Of a stretch of DNA of 64,000 bases, positions 43,441-51,244 are shown one piece after another. The stretch comes from Streptomyces sp. NBC_00554 (lineage in GTDB: Bacteria > Actinomycetota > Actinomycetes > Streptomycetales > Streptomycetaceae): contig NZ_CP107799.1 in the NCBI RefSeq assembly GCF_041431135.1, positions 1,240,001-1,304,000 of the forward strand. The letters are read 5' to 3'. Position 1 is the first letter of the stretch; the number at the start of each line of letters is the position of its first letter. The notes under the pieces were generated by a model. It made no database searches, was not told where the DNA came from, and saw only the letters and a program-made list of their open reading frames with translations. Made by a program: the position numbers and the translations under genes.

Positions 43441-43474
43441 CGGCGGAAATGTCCCGCCACGTTTATTTCCGCCG
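43441..43474 (-). terminator. Inverted repeat spanning the LysR stop codon
   Basis: CGGCGGAAAT (43441-43450) and ATTTCCGCCG (43465-43474) form a perfect 10-base stem over a 14-base loop that includes the TAA stop. It probably ends the LysR transcript. Confidence 0.6.
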
Positions 43475-44386
43475 GACCTCGTCCCCGTCGAAGTCGCGGA
43501 TCAGTTCGTGAAAGAGGTCGTGCACCGCGAGGGCGGGTTCCGACAGGGGCTGGTGGTCGGATGTGCACAGGGAGAGCTTGACCTCGATGGCGGGGTCGGT
43601 GATCCGGCGTACGACCAACTTCCGTACGTCGAGGATGGCTTGGGCCGCCGACCAGGGCAGCACCGTCGCGCCGAGGCTGGCGCCGATGGCGCTGGTCAGG
43701 GTGAGGACGGACTCGATCTCGCCGACGACCCTCGGTTCGAGTGAGGCGTGCCGGAAGGCGGCGTCGACGACCTGGCGGATCGTGTGGATGCGGCTGGGCA
43801 GGAGCAGGCCCACATCGGCGAGTTCCGCGATGGAGACGTCGTCGCCCGGGAGAGCGGACGCGGCGGTGCCCGGCGCACCGATCAGGTAGAGGTCCTCGGT
43901 GCGCATGGGCTCGAACTGGACGCCACGCAGGGGCCCGGCGCCGTAGATGAACGCCATGTCCATGCGGCCGGTCATGATGGCCTCGCTGATCACGCCGCCG
44001 AAGTTCTCGTTGATGTGCAGCACGATGTCGGGGTAGCGCTCGCGCACGGCACGCAGCAGGGGCAGGGCGAGCGCGGCGCCTGTGCTGTACGGGGCGAGGC
44101 CGACGGAGACGCTTCCGGCGGGGGCGCGGCCGGACACGTCGACCGCCGCCTGGGCGAGTTCGAGCTGGCGAAGGATCAGCTGGGCGTGCCGGTAGAGGGC
44201 GCGGCCCGCCTCGGTCGGTGCGACACCGCGCTTGCTGCGGATCAACAGCTGCTGTTTGAACTGGGTCTCCAGCGTGGAGACCTGCTGGCTCAGCGCGGGC
44301 TGCGCGATGTGCAGGATGTCGGCGGCGCGCGTGATGCTCCCGGCGTCGACGATCTTCACGAACGAGTACAGACGCCTTGTGTCCAT
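43463..44386 (-). CDS. LysR-family regulator of the pyroglutamate operon
   Basis: 307 residues. The HTH (about 1-60) reads RLYSFVKIVDAGSITRAADI and HIAQPALSQQVSTLETQFKQ. The effector domain has SVSVGLAPYSTGAALALPLL, VLHINENFGGVISEAIMTGR and VLTLTSAIGASLGATVLPWS. ATG 44386 begins the conserved part; sequence further upstream reads poorly. It is divergent from pxpA across 290 bp with a palindrome at 44566-44590, the classic LysR layout, so it probably activates the downstream operon in response to a pathway intermediate. It resembles Nac/CysB-like regulators in the HTH. Confidence 0.88.
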   Translation of the reverse strand: MDTRRLYSFVKIVDAGSITRAADILHIAQPALSQQVSTLETQFKQQLLIRSKRGVAPTEAGRALYRHAQLILRQLELAQAAVDVSGRAPAGSVSVGLAPYSTGAALALPLLRAVRERYPDIVLHINENFGGVISEAIMTGRMDMAFIYGAGPLRGVQFEPMRTEDLYLIGAPGTAASALPGDDVSIAELADVGLLLPSRIHTIRQVVDAAFRHASLEPRVVGEIESVLTLTSAIGASLGATVLPWSAAQAILDVRKLVVRRITDPAIEVKLSLCTSDHQPLSEPALAVHDLFHELIRDFDGDEVRRK

Positions 44387-44565
44387 CGGCGGCCTCCAGC
44401 CCAGCAGCCTGAGAAGGGGCTCATCGTACGGGCCGGGCGCCCGGCCCGGTGTCATACCGGGGGCCTATCACGTCACACCCAACGCGTATTTGATGCGCCA
44501 ACACCCCGGTATTACGGTCACCGAAACGCTTAATTCCCGGACGGCGTCCAACGTCCGAAGAAAAT

Positions 44566-44590
44566 GTAACGCCCGAGTTAATCGCGTTAC
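44566..44590. promoter_or_regulatory. Palindrome in the LysR-pxpA intergenic region
   Basis: GTAACGC (44566-44572) and GCGTTAC (44584-44590) form a perfect inverted repeat with an 11-base spacer, 86 bp before pxpA. Outer T and A extend it to a T-N-A form as in LysR boxes. It is the best operator candidate in the 290-bp gap. Confidence 0.5.
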
Positions 44591-44676
44591 GAATTCTTTT
44601 CCGGGAGCCCGCGCGAAGAGGCGCGACGACGCGTGAAAACACGTAATTGGGCACATTCCTGTTTCCGGAGGACGAC

Positions 44677-45447
44677 ATGGCACTCAGGGTCGATCTCGTG
44701 GCCGACCTCGGTGAGGGGTTCGGCGCCTACACGATGGGCGACGACGAGGCGCTCCTCGATGTCCTCACCTCGGCCAACATCGCCTGCGGCTTCCACGCGG
44801 GCGACCCCCGGATCATGGACGCCACCGTCCGCCGGTGCGTGGAGCGCGGGGTCGCGGTCGGCGCCCACCCCAGCTTCCCCGACCTGGTCGGCTTCGGCCG
44901 CCGCGCGATGGACCTGTCCCCTGACGAGGTCCGCACGGACGTCCTCTATCAGGTGGGCGCGCTCCAGGCGTTCGCCGCCGCGCACGGCACCCGCGTAGGG
45001 CATGTGGCACCGCACGGCCGCCTCGGCAACCTGGTCGCGACCCGCGCCGACTACGCGGACGCGGTGGCCGAAGCGGTCGCCTCCCTGGACCCCGCGCTGA
45101 TCGTCCTGGCGCAGGACGGTGCGCTCGCCGACGCCGCCCGCGCCCGTGGTCTGCGGGTCGGCATCGTCGGGATCGCCGACCGGGCCTACCGGGACGACGG
45201 CACGCTGGTGCCCAGGAGCGAGCCGGGCGCGGTCATCCATGACGAGCACGAGATCGCCGAGCGCACCGTGCGGATGGTCACCGAGGGGGTGATCCGCGGG
45301 GTCGGCGGCCGTGACATCCCGGTCGCGTGCGACACCGTCCTCCTGCACGGCGACACCCCCGGGGCCATCTCCCTCGCCCACCTCATACGCAAGGAACTCC
45401 TCGCGGCGGGCGTAACCATCGCCCCGCTGAACGGCAGGGGTGCCTGA
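44677..45447 (+). CDS. pxpA: 5-oxoprolinase subunit A (LamB/YcsF family)
   Basis: 256 residues, the usual length. With PxpB and PxpC it opens the ring of 5-oxoproline using ATP. Features are VDLVADLGEGFGAYTMGDDE, ANIACGFHAGDPRIMDATVR, AVGAHPSFPDLVGFGRRAMD and HVAPHGRLGNLVATRADYAD. The usual VKPHGALYN appears here as VAPHGRLGN; the His is kept, but Lys and Tyr are replaced, hinting at an altered substrate. ATG 44677 has CCGGAGG upstream. First gene of a seven-gene operon. Confidence 0.9.
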   Translation: MALRVDLVADLGEGFGAYTMGDDEALLDVLTSANIACGFHAGDPRIMDATVRRCVERGVAVGAHPSFPDLVGFGRRAMDLSPDEVRTDVLYQVGALQAFAAAHGTRVGHVAPHGRLGNLVATRADYADAVAEAVASLDPALIVLAQDGALADAARARGLRVGIVGIADRAYRDDGTLVPRSEPGAVIHDEHEIAERTVRMVTEGVIRGVGGRDIPVACDTVLLHGDTPGAISLAHLIRKELLAAGVTIAPLNGRGA

Positions 45448-45448
45448 C

Positions 45449-46222
45449 ATGGGCGGGGACATCCTGATCGCGGACTGCGGAGACTCGGCCGTGGTGGTCA
45501 AGGCCCAGGGCGCGAACGCCTGGGAGATCGTGCACACGCTGGCCGACGCGATCGAAGCGGCCCGCCTCGACGGGGTGTACGGGATCGTGCCGACGTACGA
45601 CTCGCTGCTCATCGAGTTCGACTGCGCGGACACCGACCACGACACGGTCCGCGACGCGTTGACGCACGAGATCGGCCGGCTCGCGGAGGGTCCGGTACGA
45701 CGGCTCCCGGCCCGGCGGTTCGTGGTTCCGGTGGTGTACGGGGGTGAGTACGGGCCCGATCTCCCCGTGGTGGCAGAGCAGTTGGGGCTGACCGAGCAGG
45801 ACGTCGTCCGGCTGCACGCGGGCACGGATCTGACGGTCCGCTGCCTGGGGGCGCCGGTGGGGGCGCCGATGACGGACGGCCCCGCCTTCCCGAGGCCGGT
45901 CCCCCGGCTGGCCTCGCCTCGTACCAGCGTGCCGCCCGGCTCGGTCGCCGTCGCCGGCCGGCAGGCCGTGATCTGCCCCATGCGGTCCCCGGGTGGCTGG
46001 CCGCTCCTCGGCCGCACCCCGCTCCGCGTCCTGGACCTCGACTCCGAGCCGCTGACTCCCTACCGGCCCGGTGACACCTTCCGGTTCGTGCCGATCACTC
46101 CCGAGCGATGGGACGAGTACGACGGCCTCGCGCTGGCGGCTGCGACGTGGGACGAGTACGACGGCCTGGCCCTGGCGCCTGACGGCCTGGCCCCGGTGCC
46201 CACGGGGGGCACCCATGGCTGA
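45449..46222 (+). CDS. pxpB: 5-oxoprolinase subunit B
   Basis: 257 residues, carboxyltransferase-like (KipI/AHS1) fold. DILIADCGDSAVVVKAQGAN opens the protein; GVYGIVPTYDSLLIEFDCAD and RFVVPVVYGGEYGPDLPVVA follow, with GGWPLLGRTPLRVLDLDSEP near the end. ATG 45449 lies 1 bp after the pxpA stop; GTG 45440 is less likely. The C-terminus carries a 13-residue tandem repeat (WDEYDGLALAAAT, then WDEYDGLALAPDG) encoded by a near-exact 39-bp DNA repeat at about 46109-46186. The family needs no such tail. Its stop overlaps the pxpC start by eight bases. Confidence 0.88.
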   Translation: MGGDILIADCGDSAVVVKAQGANAWEIVHTLADAIEAARLDGVYGIVPTYDSLLIEFDCADTDHDTVRDALTHEIGRLAEGPVRRLPARRFVVPVVYGGEYGPDLPVVAEQLGLTEQDVVRLHAGTDLTVRCLGAPVGAPMTDGPAFPRPVPRLASPRTSVPPGSVAVAGRQAVICPMRSPGGWPLLGRTPLRVLDLDSEPLTPYRPGDTFRFVPITPERWDEYDGLALAAATWDEYDGLALAPDGLAPVPTGGTHG

Positions 46223-47237
46223 CACCCTCACCATCCACCGCGCCGGTCTCACAGCCGTCCAGGATCTCGGCCGCCCGGGCCGCTCCCGGTTCGGACTTCC
46301 GGTCAACGGCGCCCCCCTCGACCAGTACTCCGCCCGCGTCGCCAACGTCCTGACCGGCAACGCCGAGAACGCGCCGCTGCTGGAGATCACCGCACTCGAC
46401 TTCAGCTGCACACCCTCGGCCGATGTGCTCATCGCGGTGACCGGGGCTCCCGCCGACTTCACCGTCGACGACGTACGACGCCCGCAGTGGGAACCCACGA
46501 TCGTCCGGTCCGGCGAGACCATCCGGATCACCGGGATCCGGCGGGGCGTACGGGTCTATCTCGCGGTGTACGGCTCGGTGAACGCGCCCTCGCTGCTGGG
46601 CAGTTGCGCCCCGGACACGATCCTGGGCTTCGGCCGGCAGTTGCGCGACGGCGATGAGATCGCCGTGCGCATCCCCTGCCCGCCCCTCGATCACCCGGTG
46701 TTCCGCATCCCGCTCTTCCAACTGCACGCCCCCGTACCGCGGTTCGGCGAGGCGTGCACGGTCGATGTCACCGACGGCCCGGAACTGGCCGAGTTCGGCG
46801 CCACGGCCGGGCGGCTCTTCGACTCGCGGTTCACCGTGACCCCGCAGAGCAACCACATCGGGCTGCGGATGAGCGGCGACGTACCGCGCCGGGTGACAAG
46901 CGGCGAGGTGCTCTCCCGTGGCGTGCCCGTGGGAGCGGTCGAGGTGCCCGCGGGCGACGAGCTGCTCGTTCTGCACCGCGGGCGCGGTGTCACCGCCGGT
47001 TACCCCGTGCTCGCGGTGGTGACCTCGACGGGCCTTTTCGCGCTGGGGCAGGCCCGGCCCGGGCAGACCGTCCGCTTCCGGCGCCGGACGGTCACCGAAG
47101 CGGTGGGCGCCTACCGCGCCCAGCGCCACAGCATCAACGCCCTCCGCACCCGCGTCCGCAGGGTGTTCGACGCCCTCCACATCCCCGTCCCCGTCCCGCA
47201 GCTCAGCCACCTCGTCCAGCAAAGGAGTCAGTCATGA
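46215..47237 (+). CDS. pxpC: 5-oxoprolinase subunit C
   Basis: 340 residues, KipA/AHS2 carboxyltransferase-like domain and partner of PxpB. It shows IHRAGLTAVQDLGRPGRSRF, GLPVNGAPLDQYSARVANVL, VYLAVYGSVNAPSLLGSCAP, SNHIGLRMSGDVPRRVTSGE and GRGVTAGYPVLAVVTSTGLF. ATG 46215 overlaps the pxpB stop. The stop overlaps the transporter start (ATGA), so translation is coupled throughout. The usual family text SYAIGGI is replaced by VYLAVYGSV near residue 115, again suggesting a variant substrate. Confidence 0.9.
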   Translation: MADTLTIHRAGLTAVQDLGRPGRSRFGLPVNGAPLDQYSARVANVLTGNAENAPLLEITALDFSCTPSADVLIAVTGAPADFTVDDVRRPQWEPTIVRSGETIRITGIRRGVRVYLAVYGSVNAPSLLGSCAPDTILGFGRQLRDGDEIAVRIPCPPLDHPVFRIPLFQLHAPVPRFGEACTVDVTDGPELAEFGATAGRLFDSRFTVTPQSNHIGLRMSGDVPRRVTSGEVLSRGVPVGAVEVPAGDELLVLHRGRGVTAGYPVLAVVTSTGLFALGQARPGQTVRFRRRTVTEAVGAYRAQRHSINALRTRVRRVFDALHIPVPVPQLSHLVQQRSQS

Positions 47238-48547
47238 GTACCCTGGCCGCCGCTCAGCCAGTGCCCAACACGGTCGACCCCACAACAGCGCGCAAAGTCA
47301 CCCTCGCCGGCTGCGTCGGTATCTTCGCCGAGCTCTACGACAACGGCATCTTCGGCTTCATGGCGGGCACCCTCGCCGCCGTCTTCTTCCCCGGCTCGGA
47401 AAACGCCGTCCAGCTCGTCTTCCTCGGCTACGCCGTCTCGTTCTTCTTCCGGCCGCTCGGCGGGGTGATCTGCGGCCACCTCGGCGACCGCATCGGGCGC
47501 CAGCGCATGCTGGTCTTCGTCATCATGCTGATCAGCGTCGCGACGGCCGCGATCGGCCTGCTGCCGACGTACGCGAGCATCGGCATCGCCGCCCCCGCGC
47601 TCCTCATCCTGCTGCGCGTACTCCAGGGCTTCTCCGTCGGCGGCGAGGCGTCCGGCGCGATGAGCTTCCTCGCCGAGCACGCCCCCGAGGGCAAGCGCGG
47701 CCGCTACACCAGCTACGCGCAGATCGCCTCCTTCCTATCCCTGCTCACCGGAACGCTGATCGCCGCCGCGATGACCAGCGGCCTCGGCACGGAGCGCATG
47801 GAGTCGTGGGGCTGGCGGATCCCGTTCCTGCTGGCGATACCGCTGGGCATCACCGGCATCTACATCCGCAAGCGGATCAGCGACACCCCCAACTTCATGC
47901 GTCTGCAGGAGGAGGGCGGGCTGTCGAAGAACCCGCTGAAGGAGGCGTTCTCGTCCGCCGAGCACCGCCGCGCGATGCTGCTCGCCCTGTTCATCCCGCT
48001 GATGAACGGCTCCGGCTACTACGTGCTGTTCGGCTACATGCCCACCTTCATGAGCACCGAGCTGGACTTCAGCAAGGTGCAGGGCCTGCTCGTCACCGCG
48101 ACCAGCCTGGTGGCCATCTGCCTCGCGATCCCGTACATGGGCTCGCTGTCCGATCGGATCGGCCGCAAGAAGGTCCTGGCGGGTGCCGCGATCGCGATGG
48201 CCGTCGCCGGAGTCCCCTGCTATCTGCTGATCGGCACGGGCAGTGTGCCGCTCGCTATCCTCGGAGCCTGTCTGATGGCGGTCATCTTCGCCGGTCACAC
48301 CGGCGTCATCCACATCCTGCTCGTCGAGCTCTTCCCGACCCGGGTCCGCTACTCCGCCTACGGCCTGGGCTACAACGTCTCCGCCGCCCTCTTCGGCGGC
48401 ACCGCCCCGCTGCTGATGACGTACCTCATCGACCGCACCGGCAACACCAACATGCCCGCGTTCTACGCCGTCCTCACCGCCCTCGGCACGCTCCTCGCCG
48501 TGTCCCGGGTGAAGGGCAGGGCTCACCTGCCGCTGCGCGACGCATAA
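47234..48547 (+). CDS. MHS-type MFS transporter for an organic acid or amino acid
   Basis: 437 residues with 12 predicted helices. Family features of metabolite:H+ symporters (KgtP, ProP, citrate type) are AGCVGIFAELYDNGIFGFMA, FRPLGGVICGHLGDRIGRQR, RVLQGFSVGGEASGAMSFLA and LSDRIGRKKVLAG. The start ATG 47234 overlaps the pxpC stop and has AAGGAG upstream. As fourth gene of the operon it probably imports the substrate of the PxpABC enzymes. The usual WDWFEYGLYG of helix 1 is AELYDNGIFG here. Confidence 0.88.
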   Translation: MSTLAAAQPVPNTVDPTTARKVTLAGCVGIFAELYDNGIFGFMAGTLAAVFFPGSENAVQLVFLGYAVSFFFRPLGGVICGHLGDRIGRQRMLVFVIMLISVATAAIGLLPTYASIGIAAPALLILLRVLQGFSVGGEASGAMSFLAEHAPEGKRGRYTSYAQIASFLSLLTGTLIAAAMTSGLGTERMESWGWRIPFLLAIPLGITGIYIRKRISDTPNFMRLQEEGGLSKNPLKEAFSSAEHRRAMLLALFIPLMNGSGYYVLFGYMPTFMSTELDFSKVQGLLVTATSLVAICLAIPYMGSLSDRIGRKKVLAGAAIAMAVAGVPCYLLIGTGSVPLAILGACLMAVIFAGHTGVIHILLVELFPTRVRYSAYGLGYNVSAALFGGTAPLLMTYLIDRTGNTNMPAFYAVLTALGTLLAVSRVKGRAHLPLRDA

Positions 48548-48599
48548 GCGCCCGGTACTACGGCACCCGCACCCACCTCTCCCCCAGGAGCACTCCACC

Positions 48600-49343
48600 A
48601 TGCCTTTCTCCGACTACAGGACCGCGCTGGTGACCGGCGCCTCGACCGGCATCGGAGCGACCGTCGTCGAGCGCCTGGCCAAGCAGGGCCTGGAAGTTCA
48701 CGCCGTCGCACGCAACGCGGACCGGCTCGACGACCTCGCCCGGCGCACCGGATGCACCCCGCACGCCGTCGACATCACCGACACCGCCGCGCTCACGGAA
48801 CTCCTGAGCGGCATCGAGGTGGACGTCCTCGTCAACAACGCCGGCGTCTCCCGCTCCGGGAACATCCTCAGCGCCGACGAGTTCGCCATCGACGAGCAGG
48901 TCGCGGTCAACATCCAGGCCGTGCTGCACCTCGTACGCCTGGTCATGCCGGGGATGGTCGAACGCGACCTCGGGCACATCGTCAACATCAGCTCGATCGC
49001 CGCGGTCTACAACTTCGGCGGCAACACGATCTACCACGCCACCAAGGCGGCCGTGCACACACTCTCCCGGCAGCTCCGCGTCGACGGCTACGGCCGCCGT
49101 ATCCGGGTCACCGAGATCTGCCCCGGCCGGGTGGAGACGGAGATCTTCGGCCGGCTCCTCGGCGACATGGAGGAAGCGCAGCGTACGTACTACGACGGGT
49201 ACGAGTCGCTGAAGCCGGAGGACATCGCCGACGCCATCGAGTACGCGGTCGGCTCACCGCGCCATGTGAACATCGGCCATCTGGAGATCATGCCGACCTT
49301 CCAGGTGCCCGGTGGCCTCAACTTCGAGCGCAGGACCGACTGA
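48600..49343 (+). CDS. SDR-family oxidoreductase
   Basis: 247 residues. The cofactor loop is TALVTGASTGIGATVVERLA; DVLVNNAGVSRSGNIL and the catalytic Ser-Tyr-Lys (HIVNISSIAAVYNFGGNTIY, HATKAAVHTLSRQLR) are all present, with ICPGRVETEIFG after them. It resembles the serine/3-hydroxy acid dehydrogenase (YdfG) branch that oxidises beta-hydroxy acids. Its start at 48600 follows the transporter by 52 bp; its TGA overlaps the aminotransferase ATG by one base. Within the operon it probably oxidises or reduces a hydroxyl on the substrate's carbon chain. Confidence 0.9.
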   Translation: MPFSDYRTALVTGASTGIGATVVERLAKQGLEVHAVARNADRLDDLARRTGCTPHAVDITDTAALTELLSGIEVDVLVNNAGVSRSGNILSADEFAIDEQVAVNIQAVLHLVRLVMPGMVERDLGHIVNISSIAAVYNFGGNTIYHATKAAVHTLSRQLRVDGYGRRIRVTEICPGRVETEIFGRLLGDMEEAQRTYYDGYESLKPEDIADAIEYAVGSPRHVNIGHLEIMPTFQVPGGLNFERRTD

Positions 49344-50542
49344 TGGCCCTCGCCGAGCGCGTCCACCGCATCAAGCCCTCCCCCAGCACCGCCGCCGCGC
49401 AACGCGTCCGCGAGCTCAAGGCGCAGGGCCACGAGATCCTCGATCTCACCGTCGGGGAGCCCGACTTCGACACCCCCGACCATGTGAAGGCCGCCGCCGT
49501 CGCGGCGATCGCACGGGGCGAGACCAAGTACACGCCCGTCAACGGCACTTCGGAGCTGCGCGCCGCCATCGCCGACAAGCTGCACGAGCGCCACGGGCTG
49601 CGCTATCCGGTGGACCGGATCACGGTGGGCGGCGGTGCGAAGCAGGTCATCTTCCTGGCCCTGATGGCGACGCTCGACGCGGGCGACGAGGTCATCATCC
49701 CCGCGCCGTACTGGGTGTCGTACCCCGACATGGTCCTCGCCAACGACGGCACACCGGTCGTCGTCGAGTGCCCGGAGGCGGACGGGTTCAAGCTCACGCC
49801 GGACCGGCTGGCGGCGGCGATCACCGACGCCACGCGCTGGGTCGTGCTCAACGCGCCGAGCAATCCGACGGGCGCCGCGTACACGGCGGACGAACTCCGT
49901 TCCCTGGCCGACGTGTTGCTGGCCCACCCTCATGTCCTGGTCCTGACCGACGAGATCTACGACGAGATCTGGTACGAGCCGGGCCACGTCCCCACGCTCC
50001 TCGGAGTGGAACCACGCCTCGCCGAGCGGGTGTTCGTCACCAACGGTGTCTCCAAGACGTACGCCATGACGGGCTGGCGCCTCGGCTACGGCGCGGGAGC
50101 AGCCGAACTCGTCGGCGCCGTCAACAAGTTGCAGTCACAGATCTCGTCCTGCCCCTCGTCCATCAGCCAGGCGGCCGCCACCGCCGCGCTCACCGGCGAC
50201 CAGAGCTTCGTCCGCGAGTGCGTCGCCGTGTACCAGGCCCGGCGCGACAGGACCGTGAAGATGCTGGCCGACGTCCCGGAGCTCTCCTGCTCCACACCGA
50301 GCGGCGGCTTCTACGCGTTCGTCGGGTGCGCCGGGGCGCTGGGCAGGCGGACTCCCGGGGGTGAAGTGCTGCGTACCGACGAGGACTTCGCCCGCTACCT
50401 CCTGGAGTCCGGGCAGGTGGCGGTGATCCACGGTGCGGCCTACGGCTCACCGGGCTACTTCCGGGTGTCCTTCGCGACGTCGAGCGACGTGCTGACCGAG
50501 GCGTGCGAGCGCATCGCCCGCGCCTGCGCCGAACTGTCCTGA
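49343..50542 (+). CDS. PLP-dependent aminotransferase (class I, AspC-like)
   Basis: 399 residues, fold type I. It starts RVHRIKPSPSTAAAQRVREL, followed by ILDLTVGEPDFDTPDHVKAA. NAPSNPTGAAYTADEL, LVLTDEIYDEIWYEPGH and the PLP-lysine region VFVTNGVSKTYAMTGWRLGY are all present. The group includes aspartate, glutamate-type and branched-chain 2-oxoacid aminotransferases. The one-base overlap with the SDR gene shows coupling. In this operon it would convert an amino acid from the opened ring (glutamate or a hydroxyglutamate) to the 2-oxo acid. Confidence 0.9.
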   Translation: MALAERVHRIKPSPSTAAAQRVRELKAQGHEILDLTVGEPDFDTPDHVKAAAVAAIARGETKYTPVNGTSELRAAIADKLHERHGLRYPVDRITVGGGAKQVIFLALMATLDAGDEVIIPAPYWVSYPDMVLANDGTPVVVECPEADGFKLTPDRLAAAITDATRWVVLNAPSNPTGAAYTADELRSLADVLLAHPHVLVLTDEIYDEIWYEPGHVPTLLGVEPRLAERVFVTNGVSKTYAMTGWRLGYGAGAAELVGAVNKLQSQISSCPSSISQAAATAALTGDQSFVRECVAVYQARRDRTVKMLADVPELSCSTPSGGFYAFVGCAGALGRRTPGGEVLRTDEDFARYLLESGQVAVIHGAAYGSPGYFRVSFATSSDVLTEACERIARACAELS

Positions 50543-50569
50543 ATCCTTGACCGTCCTCGAGAGGGAACC

Positions 50570-51244
50570 ATGCCGCACGTCACCACGAAGTTCGACCGGC
50601 CCGATCCCGCGCTGGTCGAGCAGCTGAGCAAGTACTCTTCCGCGACCATCCACGAAGCACAGGGCCGGCTCGGCGCCCTCAGCTCGTCGATCAAGCCGGT
50701 CGACCACACCATGTCCCTGTGCGGCCCCGCGTTCACCGTGCGCTGCGCCCCGCGCGACAACATCATGCTCCAGGTCGCCATCGCCCACGCCCGGCCCGGT
50801 GACGTCATCGTGGTCTCCGCCGGCGAGTACGCCGAGGCCGGCTCCTTCGGCGACGTACTGGCCAACGCCTGTGTGGCCAAGGGTCTCGGCGGTCTCGTCA
50901 CCGACACCGGCGTCCGCGACACCCTCGAACTGCGCGAGCTGGGCTTCCCGGTGTTCTCGCACAGCGTCTCCATCAAGGGCACCGTCAAGGAGACCGTCGG
51001 CCCGATCGCCCAACCGGTGCTGATCGGAGGCGAGTTGGTCCGTCCGGGCGATGTGGTGCGGGGGGATGCGGACGGCGTCGTGGTCGTACGCCGTGAGGAC
51101 GCGGCCGAGGTCGTGGGCAAGTCCCAGGACCGCGTCGACGCCGAGGCCGCCTACATCGCCGCCTATCGCTCCGGCAGGAGTGTCATCGAGGTCAGCAACC
51201 TCGCCGACGTACTCGCGGCCAAGGGACTCGTCATCGACGAGTAG
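50570..51244 (+). CDS. RraA-like HMG/CHA aldolase-oxaloacetate decarboxylase
   Basis: 224 residues. Family features are LVEQLSKYSSATIHEAQGRL, GPAFTVRCAPRDNIMLQVAI, RPGDVIVVSAGEYAEAGSFG, DVLANACVAKGLGGLVTDTG with RDTLELRELGFPVFSHSVS, and VRPGDVVRGDADGVVVVRRE. The GD-ANA-A-G and TDG/TDTGVRD motifs are those of 4-hydroxy-4-methyl-2-oxoglutarate aldolases (LigK/GalC/ProA type). They cleave 4-hydroxy-2-oxo acids to pyruvate and a second oxo acid, and decarboxylate oxaloacetate. It is the last gene of the operon, 27 bp after the aminotransferase with GAGGGA upstream, and ends at a bidirectional hairpin. Confidence 0.88.
   Translation: MPHVTTKFDRPDPALVEQLSKYSSATIHEAQGRLGALSSSIKPVDHTMSLCGPAFTVRCAPRDNIMLQVAIAHARPGDVIVVSAGEYAEAGSFGDVLANACVAKGLGGLVTDTGVRDTLELRELGFPVFSHSVSIKGTVKETVGPIAQPVLIGGELVRPGDVVRGDADGVVVVRREDAAEVVGKSQDRVDAEAAYIAAYRSGRSVIEVSNLADVLAAKGLVIDE

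Follow-up and report, generated by a model that had tools for sequence, protein, structure and literature searches.

What does a pxpABC operon degrade when it also encodes an aminotransferase and an aldolase? The question is raised by a 64,000-nucleotide stretch of Streptomyces sp. NBC_00554 DNA (RefSeq assembly GCF_041431135.1, contig NZ_CP107799.1, positions 1,240,001 to 1,304,000), referred to here as the window. The pxpABC genes, reportedly so named in a 2017 paper, stand at the head of a plus-strand operon (44677-51244) with the order pxpA-pxpB-pxpC-MHS transporter-SDR (short-chain dehydrogenase/reductase)-aminotransferase-RraA/CHA (4-carboxy-4-hydroxy-2-oxoadipate) aldolase, with a divergent lysR gene. 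The initial annotation read this operon as a pathway that opens, transaminates and then cleaves a 4-hydroxy-pyroglutamate or its 4-methyl derivative. We find that the gene set goes with an atypical pxpA and recurs in different phyla far more often than chance would allow. The enzymes encoded make it likely that a lactam other than pyroglutamate is opened, transaminated and cleaved by an aldolase. The small substrate first proposed is probably too small, and a sugar-bearing, ascorbate-derived lactam probably fits the linked genes better.

Operon layout and altered PxpABC subunits

The seven genes are coupled or closely spaced, as the initial annotation had described. The pxpA gene (44677..45447) overlaps pxpB (45440..46222) by 8 bp, pxpB overlaps pxpC (46215..47237) by 8 bp, and pxpC overlaps the transporter gene (47234..48547) by 4 bp. 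The SDR gene (48600..49343) starts 52 bp after the transporter gene and shares 1 base with the aminotransferase gene (49343..50542), which is followed after 27 bp by the aldolase gene (50570..51244). The transporter and SDR genes thus lie between pxpC and the aminotransferase gene, in keeping with their earlier assignment to the operon. The genome comprises 10.08 Mb, and its nearest named relative in the similarity scan was Streptomyces sp. NBC_00620 (L003).

The three Pxp subunits belong to their expected domain families, each with a score above cut-off (PF03746 LamB_YcsF, 304.9 bits; PF02682 CT_C_D, 160.2 bits; PF02626 CT_A_B, 206.5 bits). The pyridoxal phosphate-dependent aminotransferase is of the aspartate transaminase family (NF004769, 662.4 bits, above the cut-off of 617), and its closest Protein Data Bank (PDB) entry is aspartate aminotransferase A, 6f77. 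The last gene encodes a class II pyruvate aldolase of the HMG (4-hydroxy-4-methyl-2-oxoglutarate)/CHA type, with an RraA-like domain score of 137.7 bits. This protein passes NF006731, the CHA aldolase/oxaloacetate decarboxylase model (224.4 bits, cut-off 179), scores 194.8 against TIGR02798 ligK, under the cut-off of 304.5, and keeps the GVRD (R-D pair) and GTVKE stretches; its nearest PDB entry is 3noj. The MHS-family proton symporter, probably an uptake system, gave 347.5 bits with TIGR00883, under the cut-off of 443.45, followed by the ProP model at 321.9. For the SDR oxidoreductase the top NCBIfam model was the 3-hydroxy acid dehydrogenase YdfG (156.8 bits, under the cut-off of 411), and the closest PDB match, 3asu, is itself an SDR.

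Departures of PxpA and PxpC from common motifs had been pointed out before, and both are borne out. PxpA reads DLVADLGE, VAPHGRLGN and VGIADRAY, and compared with canonical PxpA it carries K111A, Y117G, E164V and N8V. PxpC reads SNHIGLR in place of the canonical SNRIGLR found in another copy in the same genome. PxpB is altered as well, with LGAPVGAPM in place of the GFxPGFxYL loop. PxpA scored 260.4, 259.9 and 229.9 against NCBIfam 5-oxoprolinase models with cut-offs of 392, 337 and 378, and passed the subfamily models NF003814 (336.7 versus 226) and NF003816 (226.5 versus 213). PxpB failed TIGR00370 (114.1 versus 145.55 bits), and PxpC fell below both 5-oxoprolinase models (164.1 versus 500 bits for NF045499, and 194.2 versus 230.2).

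The initial annotation had asked whether a second, normal pxpABC exists in this genome, and one is found at 8.52 Mb. Its PxpA reads VKPHGALYN, which is canonical-like, and an MFS transporter gene lies nearby, along with a further gene that we take to be DUF1445-like. The window copy is therefore not needed for ordinary 5-oxoproline use. The changes at conserved residues suggest that the window PxpABC probably acts on another lactam.

Genes linked to atypical pxpA across phyla

We collected loci by similarity to the window PxpA or to a Bradyrhizobium PxpA, never by neighbouring genes. PxpA was classed as canonical if it has K111 and Y, F or H at position 117, and as atypical if position 111 is changed. 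In two of the searches, loci were taken by eye for variety (11 of 40 and 16 of 50 listed matches). Six loci were added as likely canonical controls, three of which proved to be of an intermediate type. Nine loci representing the genome itself, near copies or short stretches (L001-L003, L009, L030, L058-L061) were excluded by hand, together with 11 loci without pxpA (L113-L123) and three with partial pxpA (L056, L057, L072); the window itself was not counted. This left 71 atypical and 36 canonical loci, the latter chiefly from Streptomyces with six from Proteobacteria, and 40 and 30 loci after removal of redundancy at 90%. Near-copies were removed blind to gene content; this filter gave lower figures than one favouring gene-rich loci, and the lower ones are used. 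Neighbours were counted as homologues within 13 kb, with presence thresholds chosen after inspection of the first loci.

Among the 40 non-redundant atypical loci, 34 have the aminotransferase, 33 the SDR, 32 the aldolase and 31 lysR, and each of these genes is found in 0/30 canonical loci (Fisher p from 4e-12 to 4e-14). Before redundancy removal, lysR is present in 57/71 atypical versus 0/36 canonical loci. The proteobacterial atypical loci (n = 15) span Alphaproteobacteria, Betaproteobacteria (Variovorax, Burkholderia) and one gammaproteobacterium (Rahnella). All 15 have lysR, SDR and aminotransferase genes, 14 have biotin carboxylase and 13 the aldolase. In the actinobacterial atypical loci (n = 56, some contigs cut), we counted the aminotransferase 48 times, the aldolase 46, the MHS transporter 44, the SDR 43 and lysR 42 times; biotin carboxylase lies near just three. 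The six proteobacterial canonical loci have none of the four partner genes, and five have biotin carboxylase. Five loci of intermediate type, which keep K111 and have a changed Y117, lack every partner apart from one biotin carboxylase. The set was also seen in bean and pea Rhizobium, Burkholderia and soil actinomycetes.

For the SDR, the identity of the window protein to its best match is 59-66% in all nine proteobacterial sets compared. A query with the SDR alone found a match at most 5 kb from a PxpA match in 34/34 plasmid records, namely those common to the best 60 of 178 SDR and the best 50 of 235 PxpA records. Together, these results support the three-step skeleton of the initial annotation well, and it is the small substrate that calls for revision.

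The residue changes follow the same division. N8, K111, Y117 and E164 are present in 35/36 canonical pxpA loci, the remaining one having N, K, Y and P, whereas K111, Y117 and E164 are altered in 71/71 atypical loci (the change at 111 being the class definition). N8 is replaced by V in all 56 actinobacterial atypical loci and kept in the 15 proteobacterial ones; likewise, the PxpB PGFxYL loop is gone in the actinobacterial group and a version is retained in the proteobacterial group. In a tree of 69 non-redundant PxpA sequences, with rows from the redundancy filter that favoured gene-rich loci, one branch sets apart the 26 atypical rows of Actinobacteria (support 100/99) and another the 14 of Proteobacteria (support 100/97). 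The fork that would part the two groups, by joining the proteobacterial one with two intermediate and one canonical PxpA, has a support of just 86/62, so K111, Y117 and E164 may have been lost either once or twice.

In a phylum sample, the genome studied here was the only one of 396 matched at E <= 1e-74. Some PxpA was found at E <= 1e-20 in 264/295 Streptomyces genomes, and an atypical PxpA in 19/295. Seventeen of these were assigned by at least 82% identity, including the genome itself and one conspecific. In the other two genomes (G055, G062) the sole such copy is at 53-55% identity and was classed by motif reading; near 53%, identity alone fails to separate the PxpA types, as the copy of G137 is canonical, and the 54% copy of G014 was left unclassed.

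L-idonate genes and the proposed pathway

Genes near relatives of the operon bear on the second product of the aldolase. At least one of a 2-hydroxyacid dehydrogenase, a gluconate 5-dehydrogenase-like SDR and an L-idonate 5-dehydrogenase-like gene was found in 46/71 atypical and 0/36 canonical loci. By gene, the atypical loci contain a D-2-hydroxyacid dehydrogenase in 42/71 (at a loose threshold of 28% identity and 70 bits), the gluconate 5-dehydrogenase-like gene in 21/71 and the L-idonate 5-dehydrogenase-like gene in 20/71; the last two occur together in 19/71. After redundancy removal the counts are 18/40, 13/40 and 12/40, versus 0/30 canonical loci in each case (Fisher p of 5e-6, 3e-4 and 7e-4, in that order).

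The plasmid locus L111 illustrates this linkage. The record is filed as Roseateles sp. XES5 with its organism flagged as unverified; the closest relative of its PxpA is the protein of Sinorhizobium chiapasense (L080). The first part of the locus reads biotin carboxyl carrier protein-biotin carboxylase-hypothetical-pxpB-pxpC-pxpA-aminotransferase, with a divergent nac, an SDR gene and four ABC transporter genes. The second part reads CHA aldolase-2-hydroxyacid dehydrogenase-L-idonate 5-dehydrogenase-SDR-gluconokinase, with gaps of 1-13 bases. Gluconokinase completes the route from 2-keto-L-gulonate to 6-phosphogluconate. The record's own annotation names the 2-hydroxyacid dehydrogenase, the L-idonate 5-dehydrogenase and the gluconokinase, and calls the fourth protein only an SDR. 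For the L-idonate 5-dehydrogenase the best model is the one of that name (356, under the equivalog cut-off of 469). The SDR scores above the cut-off of NF005711, with gluconate 5-dehydrogenase as the next model (301.8 versus a cut-off of 408), and the 2-hydroxyacid dehydrogenase and gluconokinase have no model match at the strict limit of 1e-60. In the relatives, the top PDB match of the L-idonate 5-dehydrogenase is also an L-idonate 5-dehydrogenase. Gluconokinase is present in two of the loci read, and that of S. chiapasense passes TIGR01313. Variants of the cluster occur in Paracoccus sp. MA, Pararhizobium gei, Microvirga terrae and S. chiapasense, and lysR has the same dehydrogenase genes as neighbours in Amycolatopsis, Saccharopolyspora and several Streptomyces.

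The corresponding reactions are described for Aspergillus in three papers: L-idonate is formed from 2-keto-L-gulonate by a D-2-hydroxyacid dehydrogenase (PMC4870679), GluE oxidises L-idonate to 5-keto-D-gluconate (PMC5306355), and 5-keto-D-gluconate is reduced onward by an NADPH-dependent enzyme (PMC5814732). These three enzymes, a 2-keto-L-gulonate reductase, an L-idonate 5-dehydrogenase and a 5-keto-D-gluconate reductase, make up a route that is well established in that fungus. Genes for NAD(P) transhydrogenase adjoin the set in Microvirga and Burkholderia (L077:16906-18759 and L079:1-960), as might be expected if the linked dehydrogenases upset the supply of NADPH.

In the window's own genome, a cluster at 8.15 Mb encodes an L-idonate 5-dehydrogenase (62%) and a gluconate 5-dehydrogenase (73%), together with genes that, from reading of their sequences, look like those for a gluconate permease, a gluconokinase and a GntR-type regulator.

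The L-idonate genes beside the operon in relatives suggest that the aldolase releases, besides pyruvate, a 2-keto aldonate of six carbons, and hence that the ring is larger and bears a sugar. We put the chance that this product is a 2-keto-L-gulonate-type compound at about even. If so, the aldolase substrate would be 4-hydroxy-4-(tetrahydroxybutyl)-2-oxoglutarate, the matching glutamate would be transaminated, and its lactam would be opened by PxpABC. The operon could then be the upper catabolic pathway for a 4-hydroxy-4-substituted pyroglutamate whose side chain is an ascorbate-derived polyol of four carbons. The lactam form of ascorbalamic acid is the most plausible such compound. We favour this reading of the operon tentatively and at slightly less than even chance. 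That ascorbalamic acid itself is the substrate is possible, though the case is still more tentative. To our knowledge it is the sole natural compound with such a skeleton that could be named. Its structure, reportedly described in 1973, has an alanine unit on ascorbate C2 and a keto group at the former ascorbate C3. This C3 keto group is one oxidation level too high to yield 2-keto-L-gulonate, so a single reductase would be required; the YdfG-type identity of the SDR and its conservation across phyla fit that role. The sum of ascorbate (C6H8O6) and dehydroalanine (C3H5NO2) is C9H13NO8, equal to the formula that a plant metabolomics table (PMC9229034) gives for ascorbalamic acid.

We infer the individual reactions, the order of steps two to four and the substrate from the genes encoded. 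Uptake by the MHS symporter, or by an ABC transporter in many proteobacterial sets, would be the first step. PxpBC would then activate the ring amide with ATP, via carboxybiotin in the proteobacterial clusters that bear biotin carboxylase, and PxpA would hydrolyse the activated amide to a 4-hydroxy-4-R-glutamate; the lactam would be opened through N-carboxylation or phosphorylation. In the third step the SDR would reduce the 3-keto group of the ascorbate half, in the fourth the aminotransferase would form 4-hydroxy-4-R-2-oxoglutarate, and in the fifth the CHA-type aldolase would release pyruvate and 2-keto-L-gulonate. The sixth step would lead from 2-keto-L-gulonate through L-idonate, 5-keto-D-gluconate and D-gluconate to 6-phosphogluconate, by 2-hydroxyacid dehydrogenase, L-idonate 5-dehydrogenase, gluconate 5-dehydrogenase and gluconokinase encoded elsewhere in the genome or, in relatives, adjoining.

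Several observations weigh against an ascorbate-derived substrate. None of the three L-idonate-module dehydrogenases lies beside the window operon, and none of the module is found within 13 kb in 25/71 atypical loci. No close 2-hydroxyacid dehydrogenase was found in the window's own genome, where the best of four is 40% identical to the query, and the case is therefore weaker for this strain; a bacterial 2-keto aldonate reductase of broad range is described in passages of PMC5306355. Besides the loose threshold for the 2-hydroxyacid dehydrogenase, the best score for three of the four such enzymes scanned is with the glyoxylate reductase model, below its cut-off, and the PDB neighbour of the L111 enzyme is an unspecified D-2-hydroxyacid dehydrogenase. 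The stretch read of Burkholderia lacks L-idonate genes and encodes phosphoenolpyruvate (PEP) carboxylase along with an enzyme resembling glycerate dehydrogenase, a combination that also fits glyoxylate. The aldolase is replaced in eight loci by a distant RraA (32-37% identical) in which the R-D pair is kept and GTVK is gone; either the aldol step is needed there despite the protein exchange, or the reaction differs. No aldolase was seen in the stretch read of the Bifidobacterium and Rahnella loci, and L037 and L073 have no partner gene within 13 kb. Finally, ascorbalamic acid is listed as a putative metabolite in PMC9229034 and in a second paper.

The same enzyme logic would serve a small ring, 4-hydroxy- or 4-hydroxy-4-methyl-5-oxoproline, giving pyruvate and glyoxylate or two pyruvates, with the 2-hydroxyacid dehydrogenases of relatives acting as glyoxylate reductases. 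The glyoxylate reductase scores and the Burkholderia genes would suit this explanation. Two Bradyrhizobium loci come from peanut strains, and peanut is rich in 4-methyleneglutamine. A pathway confined to that peanut compound was rejected, the set being far wider, and is kept within the small-ring explanation. In addition, 4-hydroxy-5-oxoproline is named in metabolomic work on primary hyperoxaluria type III (PMC13117884). However, plain 4-hydroxy(-4-methyl)-pyroglutamate, the substrate of the initial annotation, leaves the SDR, among the best conserved proteins across phyla, without a role, and likewise the L-idonate 5-dehydrogenase, gluconate 5-dehydrogenase and gluconokinase, which in L111 come after the aldolase and 2-hydroxyacid dehydrogenase genes; we consider it unlikely.

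A carboxylase-hydrolase of the CT type for some other amide or imide, releasing a C4 amino acid that the aminotransferase and RraA protein would simply process by aspartate transaminase and oxaloacetate decarboxylase activities, is given an equally low probability. Biotin carboxylase near 14/15 proteobacterial atypical loci, as in urea-carboxylase-like enzymes, would agree with it, as would the two models passed by the aminotransferase and aldolase; amino acid ABC transporters, for their part, serve many substrates. Yet biotin carboxylase is unspecific, being near 5/36 canonical loci too, a dispensable oxaloacetate decarboxylase would hardly be kept in 32/40 loci, and we could name no substrate that ties this explanation to the L-idonate module. 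An ordinary second 5-oxoprolinase operon, converting pyroglutamate to glutamate amid loosely associated amino acid genes, is very improbable. Relatives are auto-annotated as 5-oxoprolinase subunits, and two subfamily models that carry the name are passed by PxpA. Against this stand the canonical pxpABC already in the genome, the scores of PxpA, PxpB and PxpC under the equivalog or domain cut-offs, the changes at K111, Y117 and E164 in every atypical locus (111 by definition), and the fact that glutamate requires no dedicated aldolase. We rejected plain pyroglutamate salvage as the principal explanation on account of the second pxpABC, the failed cut-offs and the residue changes.

The initial annotation knew of no described pathway of this form, and none was found among the literature matches listed, a search that left most subscription papers outside. 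Nor is catabolism of ascorbalamic acid described among those matches, and the genes of the Rhizobium leguminosarum pRL10 set were not found in the main text of a rhizosphere transcriptome paper (PMC3333776). The enzyme families are known; their combination and likely substrate are not. The operon apparently represents an undescribed, phylum-crossing catabolic pathway even if its substrate is another 4-hydroxy-4-substituted pyroglutamate, and the scheme offers a proposal for each step whichever such compound it is. There is a limited chance that it is the first recognised bacterial catabolism of ascorbalamic acid, in soil actinomycetes and on plasmids of rhizobia, Paracoccus and Burkholderiales, with a re-specialised PxpABC that is biotin-dependent in Proteobacteria. 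If true, a fate would be found for this plant compound and vitamin C breakdown would be tied to soil and rhizosphere bacteria. A large gene group now annotated as 5-oxoprolinase would then have another function and need corrected names, and PxpBC/CT-domain enzyme action with and without biotin would gain a concrete test.

Related systems, the regulator and further pxpA loci

The closest known system is the PxpABC 5-oxoprolinase of E. coli, B. subtilis and C. glutamicum, which has the same LamB/YcsF, CT_C_D and CT_A_B subunits in an operon with a transporter; according to PMC13274462, C. glutamicum cannot grow on 5-oxoproline without pxpTABC. The operon described here differs in the loss of K111, Y117 and E164, in N8 and the PxpB loop in Actinomycetota, and in its recurrent aminotransferase, SDR, aldolase and NAC-type LysR partners. 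The aldolase shares the R-D pair, GTVK and a pass of the CHA cut-off with the HMG/CHA aldolase of protocatechuate and gallate 4,5-cleavage. That enzyme cleaves 4-hydroxy-4-R-2-oxoglutarate to pyruvate and a 2-oxo acid, according to passages of PMC5065237 that also concern the effect of changing Arg123. In contrast to those systems, the operon has no aromatic ring-cleavage genes, and the neighbours of its aldolase are lactam and amino acid enzymes. The 2-keto-L-gulonate/L-idonate route (GluC/GluD-GluE-GluF in Aspergillus, the idn genes in E. coli) uses the dehydrogenases seen in relatives, with gluconokinase in two loci. Here, however, the module would receive its 2-keto acid from an aldolase instead of starting from glucuronate or free idonate, and the window's genome carries it away from the operon. 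Proteobacterial sets share CT-domain proteins, biotin carboxylase and a carrier protein with biotin-dependent urea carboxylase-like clusters; they differ in including the LamB/YcsF protein PxpA, and biotin carboxylase is found in only 3/56 actinobacterial atypical loci.

The divergent regulator gene (43463..44455, minus strand), outside the range covered by the initial annotation, encodes a LysR protein of NAC type (NF008410, 368.9 bits versus a cut-off of 309). Its start is probably at 44386, as the NAC family match begins only at residue 24. The interval between lysR and pxpA (44456..44676) is by position the expected control region, and a scan of it for sigma-70-type promoters gave 0 sites.

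Five Streptomyces loci (L064-L068) form a third actinobacterial subgroup, with PxpA 53-54% identical to that of the window and reading VAPHGRMGS. They have their own MHS transporter, SDR (about 33-36%) and distant RraA, and four of the five have an aminotransferase (33-34%); perhaps their substrate is related but different. L068 has homologues of gluconate 5-dehydrogenase and L-idonate 5-dehydrogenase as well. In a further PxpA type, K111 and E164 are kept and Y117 is changed to A, G or N (L074; L132, Leisingera; L133, Methylobacterium; L135, Azospirillum; L048, Pseudomonas). On a Rhodobacteraceae plasmid (L074:8001-8768) such a pxpA is followed by allantoinase and ureidoglycolate lyase genes, and a TRAP transporter lies alongside in L132 and a Zn-dependent hydrolase in L133; these neighbours suggest that this type probably acts on other substrates again.

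In Micropruina (L056, L057), pxpA is only partly matched, and the adjacent genes for an acyl-CoA carboxylase are accompanied in both loci by one and the same third gene (c62); they are probably a housekeeping cluster outside the set. The plasmid copy L073, whose pxpA is partly matched and stands without partners, looks broken or truncated. The pxp genes on an Arthrobacter plasmid (L072:10001-12481) also look broken, with pxpA and pxpC each matched in two pieces. On a plasmid of Bradyrhizobium sp. 62B (L082), one pxpA lies amid two pxpBC pairs, one of them with biotin carboxylase and carrier genes, and an aminotransferase and several SDR genes are close by. In the window itself, WDEYDGLALA occurs twice, as a repeat, at the PxpB C-terminus (46110-46222).

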